Origin: Candidatus Cloacimonadales bacterium
GTDB taxonomy: Bacteria > Cloacimonadota > Cloacimonadia > Cloacimonadales > TCS61
DNA: 42,310 nucleotides
Assembly: GCA_030656075.1 (NCBI GenBank)
Contig: JAUSOT010000096.1
Coordinates: forward strand, 1 to 42,310
Reading direction: 5' to 3'
The notes under the pieces were generated by a model. It saw nothing but the letters and a program-made list of their open reading frames with translations, made no database searches and was not told where the DNA came from. Below, in pieces: positions 39,259 to 42,310 of this stretch. Both the position numbers and the translations under genes were made by a program. The first letter of the stretch is position 1. Each line of letters begins with the position of its first letter.

Positions 39259-40917
<1,659 letters not shown>

Positions 40918-40934
40918 CTATTATTTTTAACTTT

Positions 40935-40961
40935 TTAGCAATCACTCACTACGAGTGCTAA
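40935..40961. promoter_or_regulatory. CIRCE operator (HrcA-binding site) of groEL
   Basis: TTAGCAATC-N9-GAGTGCTAA matches the consensus TTAGCACTC-N9-GAGTGCTAA with one mismatch. It is placed ~36 bp upstream of groEL. A TTGACA -35-like hexamer on the minus strand (40987-40982) lies just beyond it. This predicts heat-shock regulation by an HrcA repressor encoded elsewhere. Confidence 0.93.
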
Positions 40962-41071
40962 GGAAAAGCTAAGCTATTTTTTGTCAAACAAAAATATTTT
41001 TTTCAATTTTTTTGAATACATCAACACAATCTATAAATGATAATTAAGTAATCTCAAATCTTTAATTTAAT

Positions 41072-41110
41072 AAAAAAGACACAAGCCGGAGCCTGTGTCT
41101 TAATTTTTTT
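41072..41110. terminator. Bidirectional intrinsic terminator between divergent groEL and cas genes
   Basis: A-run, AAGACACA, AGCCGGAGCC, TGTGTCTT, then ATTTTTTT. The 8-bp perfect stem is flanked by A and T runs so it can act on either strand. No annotated gene ends here, so it is an orphan terminator. Confidence 0.75.
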
Positions 41111-41114
41111 GTTA

Positions 41115-41143
41115 GATACATCGTCTTTTTCTTGACATATAAT
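41115..41143 (+). promoter_or_regulatory. Weak promoter candidate for the cas operon
   Basis: A perfect TATAAT at 41138-41143 has GATACA 17 bp upstream (matching the ACA of the -35). It is ~50 bp before the cas6 start and just after the orphan terminator. A TTGACA overlaps the same place but has no good -10 at the right distance. Confidence 0.35.
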
Positions 41144-41194
41144 TCCTGCGTAGAGAATTTCTCATTGTTCTGATTTTTCCAGTTAGGAGTGATG

Positions 41195-41866
41195 ATGGAA
41201 GCGAAGATTTTAGTTATTGTTTTTAATTCTGTAACATTATTTCCTTCTCAAATTCCCAAACTGCGCGGATTCTTTTCGAATAAATTTCCTGATGATCTCG
41301 AGTTCCACAATCACTTACCGGATGGCAGCTTTTCCTATAAATTTCCCCAAATACAATATCGGATCATCAATAAACATCCCGCTTTGATTGGGATTGAAAA
41401 TGGAATTGAAATCCTTAAACGCCTATTTTTTTCTCTCGAAGATATTATTATCGACAATAGAGTTTATCAGCTTCACGAAAAAGAAATATCTATGAAATCA
41501 ATGCAAATCGGGATGGCCGAGGATTTCATTAATTACAGGTTCACTTCTCCCTGGATGGCTCTTAATGAAGATAACTACCAAAATTTCAATTCAAAAGATA
41601 AATTTGAACAGCAAATTTTCCTGAAGCATCTGCTCAGAGAAAATCTGAAAACCCTCTCCAAAGGTTTCAATTATTGGATAGAAGACATCGAAAAAGTGAA
41701 GGTGGAAGGATATTTCAAACCCAAACAGGTTAATTTTAAAAACCAGAAAATGCTCTGTTTCACAGGTGATTTTATGACCAATTTCTACATCCCGGATTTT
41801 ATGGGATTAGGAAAGCAGAGCGCGAGAGGTTTCGGAGTTGTTCAATCTGCAACTCCCAAAAAATAA
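41195..41866 (+). CDS. cas6: CRISPR-associated endoribonuclease Cas6 (Cas6b type)
   Basis: 223 aa from ATG 41195, chosen because AGGAG is 5 bp upstream (the track used GTG 41189). The N-terminal half has the Cas6b-style LRGFFSNKFPDDLEFHNHL, then SYKFPQIQYRII and ALIGIENGIEIL. The C-terminus has the family glycine-rich loop DFMGLGKQSARGFGVV. It cuts the pre-crRNA within repeats and stays bound to the crRNA. A candidate catalytic His lies in EFHNH, but this is not certain. The next gene, 63 bp later, looks like Cas8b, which supports a type I-B locus continuing to the right. No repeats or spacers are in the window. Confidence 0.88.
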   Translation: MEAKILVIVFNSVTLFPSQIPKLRGFFSNKFPDDLEFHNHLPDGSFSYKFPQIQYRIINKHPALIGIENGIEILKRLFFSLEDIIIDNRVYQLHEKEISMKSMQIGMAEDFINYRFTSPWMALNEDNYQNFNSKDKFEQQIFLKHLLRENLKTLSKGFNYWIEDIEKVKVEGYFKPKQVNFKNQKMLCFTGDFMTNFYIPDFMGLGKQSARGFGVVQSATPKK

Positions 41867-41929
41867 TTAATGAACGAATGCGACTTAGCCTATGTCGCCA
41901 TCAGCAAAGAAGAATTTTGGAGGTGAAAG

Positions 41930-42310
41930 GTGATAAATGCGATTGCAGAACTCGGGAAATATGAAAAAACAAATAACCCGAATATCTCAAGTTTTGATAT
42001 TTGGTTGGAAGATTCTTATGATGAAAATAATTATCCACATTTGCTTTTAATCGAATTCAAAAAAGTAAAGAATGATGATAAAAGCGATTTATTAGATGAA
42101 GATTGGAAATGGGTTTTCAGTAAAGTTGATTATCGTGAACACAGTTCAAATTTAAAATCTAAACTTTTATACAAACGAGGTTCACCAAGAGGAACAGATA
42201 AAACGCCTACTTGTAAAACAGCAAATAACCTCGCAGGAAGCTTTAATCAAAAAATTAAATCTTGGTTTTCTCAAAATCAAAATATTTCTTTTCTTGATGA
42301 TAATTCTAAA
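41930..42310 (+). CDS. Cas8b-like (TM1802/Csh1-type) Cascade large subunit, truncated by window end
   Basis: 127 codons are open without a stop to the window edge. The start is a GTG preceded by GGAGGTGAAAG. It is missing from the ORF track because it is incomplete. The translation begins MINAIAELGKYEKTNN, similar in style to Cas8b/Csh1 openings. It later contains YKRGSPRGTDKTPTCKT and SFNQKIKSWF, which resemble the N-terminal region of TM1802-type proteins. Position directly after cas6 fits. As the large subunit of a type I-B Cascade it would recognise the PAM. Only the first fifth or so is visible, so the family call is moderate. Confidence 0.6.
   Translation, partial: MINAIAELGKYEKTNNPNISSFDIWLEDSYDENNYPHLLLIEFKKVKNDDKSDLLDEDWKWVFSKVDYREHSSNLKSKLLYKRGSPRGTDKTPTCKTANNLAGSFNQKIKSWFSQNQNISFLDDNSK

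Follow-up and report, generated by a model that had tools for sequence, protein, structure and literature searches.

The right end of the 42,310-nt stretch analysed here (the window, which is the entire contig C46) raises the question of how the first genes of a CRISPR-Cas operon came to stand beside groEL, and whether these genes share one ancestry. The contig belongs to a bin of 3.23 Mb and 94% completeness, whose close relatives are Cloacimonadota. The features discussed below are collected in Table 1.

Table 1. Features at the right end of the window
Feature	Position	Strand	Basis
groEL, conserved left neighbour of the insertion	39259..40899	-	87-90% identical to nearest relatives
CIRCE-like operator of groEL, TTAGCAATC-N9-GAGTGCTAA, one mismatch	40935..40961	.	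upstream of groEL in most relatives
AATATTTTTTTCAA, 14-mer, probable left boundary of the insertion, possible target-site duplication	40993..41006	+	repeated on C119
Intrinsic terminator hairpin within the inserted segment, flanked by the groEL and cas transcription units	41076..41101	-	pattern scan, folding
cas6b, crRNA-processing endoribonuclease	41195..41866	+	Pfam, PADLOC, PDB matches
Seam, G001-like cas6b / G008-like cas8b	41867..41929	+	identities, trees
REP-like palindrome GCGACTTAGCCTATGTCGC in the cas6b-cas8b joint	41880..41898	.	19-mer; matches relatives' arm
cas8b (TM1802 type), N-terminal 127 residues, truncated by the contig end	41930..42310	+	Pfam, PADLOC

The start of a type I-B operon

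An earlier note, made from the sequence alone, had read the right edge as cas6b followed by a truncated Cas8b-like gene, and both identities were confirmed by profile searches. Cas6b matches Cas6b_N (6e-29) and Cas6b_C (2e-35) of Pfam, Cas6b of PADLOC (2.5e-70) and the PDB structure of Cas6b 4z7k (1e-41), and the ATG at 41195, preceded by TAGGAG, is a better start than 41189. Of cas8b, the contig includes the first 381 bases; tested against Cas8b profiles over these 127 residues, the reading frame matches positions 1-109 of Pfam Cas_TM1802 (PF09484) at 7e-16, above the cut-off, and PADLOC Cas8b of CAS-I-B at 6e-14. These matches uphold the proposal that a type I-B operon starts at the right edge. 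With a Cas8b signature protein, a Cas6b processing nuclease, and a CRISPR array on contig C119 of the same genome, the locus is supported as the beginning of a type I-B CRISPR-Cas operon of a Cloacimonadota bacterium.

The genes cas7, cas5, cas3, cas1, cas2, and cas4 were not found in the bin, whose contig C46 stops in cas8b. Searches of the genome with working controls revealed neither a second Cas8 nor any Cas1; a query that concatenated Cas7-5-3-2-4, run without a positive control, had no match beyond the window. In relatives, the genes of Cas3, Cas5, Cas7, and the adaptation proteins are present in order. The full operon of G001, a genome of the same genus, reads cas6b-RAYT-cas8b-cas7-cas5-cas3-cas1-IVP-cas2-cas4 and closes with the first repeat of an array. 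The repeat on C119, CTTTGAATTTGATTTCCATTAGAACAAGGATTGAAAC, is 37 nt long, ends in GATTGAAAC, and resembles that of G001. Three cas loci (L037:9298-9693, L116:2385-2852, L164:549-989) have a gene for IVP, a four-helix protein of the 23S rRNA-intervening-sequence type, placed between cas1 and cas2.

Insertion between groEL and an M1 peptidase gene

The C119 array stands at the contig edge, and the next gene encodes a secreted M1 peptidase. In seven relatives, the M1 gene (56-78% identical) is located upstream of groEL and transcribed divergently from it. Since the array adjoins the M1 gene and the two genes are paired in these relatives, the cas locus was inserted between groEL and M1 in the window genome, in agreement with the earlier supposition of an insertion beside groEL. 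Upstream of groEL, homology to the groEL-M1 spacers of G001 and other relatives stops at 41003. The 14-mer AATATTTTTTTCAA has a second copy on C119, after the array and before M1, where the insertion has its right edge; its occurrence at both edges would fit insertion with target duplication and, in AT-rich sequence, is suggestive only. In G001, a UPF0158 gene lies between groEL and the M1 peptidase gene (L114:1-3506), so this spacer has taken other insertions as well. The groEL leader carries a conserved TTGTCAAAC promoter element upstream of the CIRCE-like operator, typical of an HrcA-controlled groEL.

The hairpin between the groEL and cas genes is genuinely terminator-like, and more so when read leftward. 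As minus-strand RNA it folds at -18.0 kcal/mol (z = -6.2; 0 of 200 shuffles equally stable), with an unbroken stem of 11 pairs that includes one G-U pair. As plus-strand RNA, it reaches -14.2 kcal/mol with an A-C mismatch in the stem. It had been described as a bidirectional terminator that ends no annotated gene. The latter is true; the former holds for the U-run, which is present on the plus strand too, and less so for the stem, and the pattern scan picks the hairpin on the minus strand only.

As for its role, the hairpin would most likely separate groEL-side from cas-side transcription and may thereby act as an insulator, one of the three possibilities offered earlier, and it would have arrived with the inserted cassette or arisen in it. 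A remnant of a gene displaced by the insertion fails as an explanation because groEL and M1 diverge, so that no ancestral gene, and no transcript, ended at this site; moreover, the homology ends left of the terminator. No matching hairpin was detected before cas6b or in the groEL-M1 spacer of relatives. Relatives showed no terminator conserved together with either their cas operon or groEL; that of G023 sits just after its upstream gene. The hairpin might instead close a small RNA missing from the annotation, or a groEL-region leader, as its strength, its U-runs, and the lack of an annotated gene upstream could suggest; an Rfam scan yielded tRNA-Leu as its sole match, a promoter scan revealed no excess, and 41007-41110 is not conserved in relatives, which leaves this reading distinctly unlikely.

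Discordant ancestry of cas6b and cas8b

The two cas genes of the window point to different relatives. Cas6b is 80% identical to that of G001 and 53% to that of G008, a member of a different genus, whereas for the N-terminus of Cas8b the identity is 27% with G001 and 77% with G008. In phylogenetic trees, the Cas6b of the window grouped with that of G001 (98/97) and its Cas8b with those of G008 and G020 (100/99), and the DNA of the window and G008 is 81% identical from the cas8b ribosome-binding site on. Similar discordance is found elsewhere in the phylum. Between G008 and G114, which belongs to another family, identity is 79% for Cas6b, 28% for Cas8b, and 41% for Cas7, and comparison of G008, G114, and G020 places the exchange at the cas6b-cas8b joint on contigs that extend past it. 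G001 and G020 share a block of 81% identical DNA from the RAYT gene to the start of cas8b, where it ends.

The ancestry change lies less than 450 bases from the contig end and the remaining operon is absent from the bin, as would be expected if the assembly had joined two organisms there. However, the same joint is exchanged in other genomes whose contigs run past it (G008, G114, and G020), and the joint of the window contains a proper ribosome-binding site together with a palindrome typical of this joint in relatives. An artefact is thus conceivable for the seam of the window genome, near a contig end, and not for the pattern across genomes; we regard it as quite unlikely. It could also be argued that the whole cas locus, cas8b included, was inherited together and that the swap is only apparent, produced by fast divergence of Cas8b in G001, since Cas8 proteins evolve quickly and vary widely among these loci. 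Yet the Cas8b of the window is far closer to that of the other-genus G008 than the Cas6b is, and the conflict between the trees is strongly supported, so that inheritance as a unit appears very improbable. We consider that the effector module starting at cas8b was probably exchanged, as set out below.

Other genes also occupy this part of the operon in relatives. In G022, cas6b and cas8b are separated by a SWIM protein (L038:14148-14615). Between its cas6b and cas1, G023 carries, in place of the effector genes, a SWIM-like protein of 583 aa, a protein of the UPF0158 family, and a truncated RAYT, and the array is kept (L051:10610-12803). In G037, a KilA-N gene between cas6b and cas8b (L039:5463-5906) is followed by a duplicated 3' end of cas6b and looks as if it had been inserted with a duplication.

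RAYT genes and palindromes at the joint

Among 125 genomes of the phylum, 16 close RAYTs were found, of which 10 are located in cas operons and six elsewhere; a RAYT strictly associated with CRISPR was accordingly rejected. In seven of the cas-operon cases, the RAYT gene directly follows cas6: it is directly 3' of cas6b in G001, G020, G124, G013, G114, and G122 and follows a different Cas6 in G041. The other positions are between cas3 and cas1 (G028), before cas1 (G023), and between cas4 and cas1 (second operon of G020). To explain the RAYT tree, two or more moves between cas and non-cas sites are needed, which gives the cas-operon RAYTs at least two origins. The G001 protein matches NCBIfam NF047646 above the cut-off (1.9e-24) and the others fall slightly below it; the match to PDB 4er8, the E. 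coli TnpAREP, is 2.6e-4, and the alignment includes HFH (the HUH motif) and the catalytic Tyr. The window genome has no close RAYT of this subfamily, only distant RAYT-like matches. No relatives were detected when plasmids were searched with the G020 RAYT and viral contigs with the RAYT profile.

The RAYT genes of relatives are flanked by palindromes. Palindromes of 20 nt and the form GCGA(C/T)...(A/G)TCGC occur 24 times on the cas-bearing contigs of four genomes (72.8 kb) and 3 times on control contigs (498.9 kb); they are not high-copy genome-wide elements, being a handful found mainly in cas loci. Most are intergenic around RAYT, cas1, cas2, cas4, and cas6, and one lies between cas5 and cas3. 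Some palindromes lengthen the N-termini of the cas2 and cas4 frames, like in-gene palindromic elements (L153:7715-8202, L051:14756, L037:10056).

The palindrome in the window, a short 19-mer with a modest RNA hairpin (z = -1.7), is the only GCGAC-N9-GTCGC of its genome. Patterns of this kind arise randomly a few times per genome (a control pattern of like specificity occurs four times in 3.2 Mb), the copy is a single one, and no close RAYT accompanies it, all of which would suit a chance inverted repeat without any link to RAYT. Against this, its position is within the 63-base joint, which holds palindromes of this type in relatives, and the probability of such a hit is ~1e-4 at the control density of ~4 per genome; its extended left arm, CGAATGCGAC, is the reverse complement of GTCGCATTCG in relatives, and, like its counterparts in G001 and G020, it immediately precedes the ribosome-binding site of cas8b. 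A chance origin thus seems unlikely, and we infer that the palindrome is a residue of a RAYT-palindrome joint.

A possible history and its relation to known systems

As a whole, the most plausible explanation, and in our judgment a highly likely one, combines an inserted cassette, an exchanged effector module, a palindrome remnant, and a separating terminator. A cassette of cas6b, cas8b, the other cas genes beyond the contig end, and the CRISPR array would have been inserted between groEL and the divergent M1 gene. Cas6b, the reader of the CRISPR repeat, would belong with the host genus, the effector module starting at cas8b would have been replaced by that of another genus, and the single REP-like palindrome at the joint would be what remains of the RAYT-palindrome element that occupies the joint in relatives, in an order of events that we infer. 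That palindromes drive all exchange was rejected: effector exchange is also seen in G006 and G037, whose loci have no palindrome or RAYT, so neither is needed for it. A bolder and rather doubtful proposal is that a RAYT subfamily with GCGAC...GTCGC palindromes resides at module joints in Cloacimonadota cas operons and promotes effector swapping by nicking the palindromes or providing homologous joints; in the window, on this view, the joint would have been swapped and its RAYT lost. For the events at the joint during the known swapping of effectors next to cas6, an HUH single-strand transposase with palindromes, recurrent at the joint and largely confined to cas loci, is a concrete and testable candidate.

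The locus resembles known type I-B systems (Cas6b, Cas8b/TM1802-Csh1, Csh2, Cas5h, Cas3, Cas1-2-4) in its gene families, in their order in the same-genus relative, and in the 37-nt repeat ending in GATTGAAAC. It differs in the cas1-cas2-cas4 order of relatives, several of which have a RAYT separating cas6b from cas8b and the four-helix protein IVP separating cas1 from cas2. In-situ exchange of effectors next to the attractor genes cas6, cas1, cas2, and cas4 has been described (PMC6452270). As in that process, cas6, the adaptation genes, and the array are kept and cas8-cas7-cas5-cas3 are replaced; unlike it, the joint here is marked in several lineages by a RAYT gene or by REP-like palindromes. 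A link between RAYT/REP elements and cas operons was not found in open-access papers. RAYTs are reported to be inherited vertically and not to occur on plasmids (PMC8049555), whereas the RAYT here would lie in a mobile defence operon. REPs are normally scattered in hundreds of copies (PMC3116915). The arrangement in relatives resembles REPtrons (RAYT/TnpAREP plus REP; PMC3733652, PMC8266576) in that an HUH/Y1 RAYT is flanked by short palindromes, some of them within coding sequence. It departs from them in having few palindromes clustered in cas loci instead of hundreds genome-wide, in the GCGAC...GTCGC form of these palindromes, and in the residence of the RAYT in a mobile defence operon.
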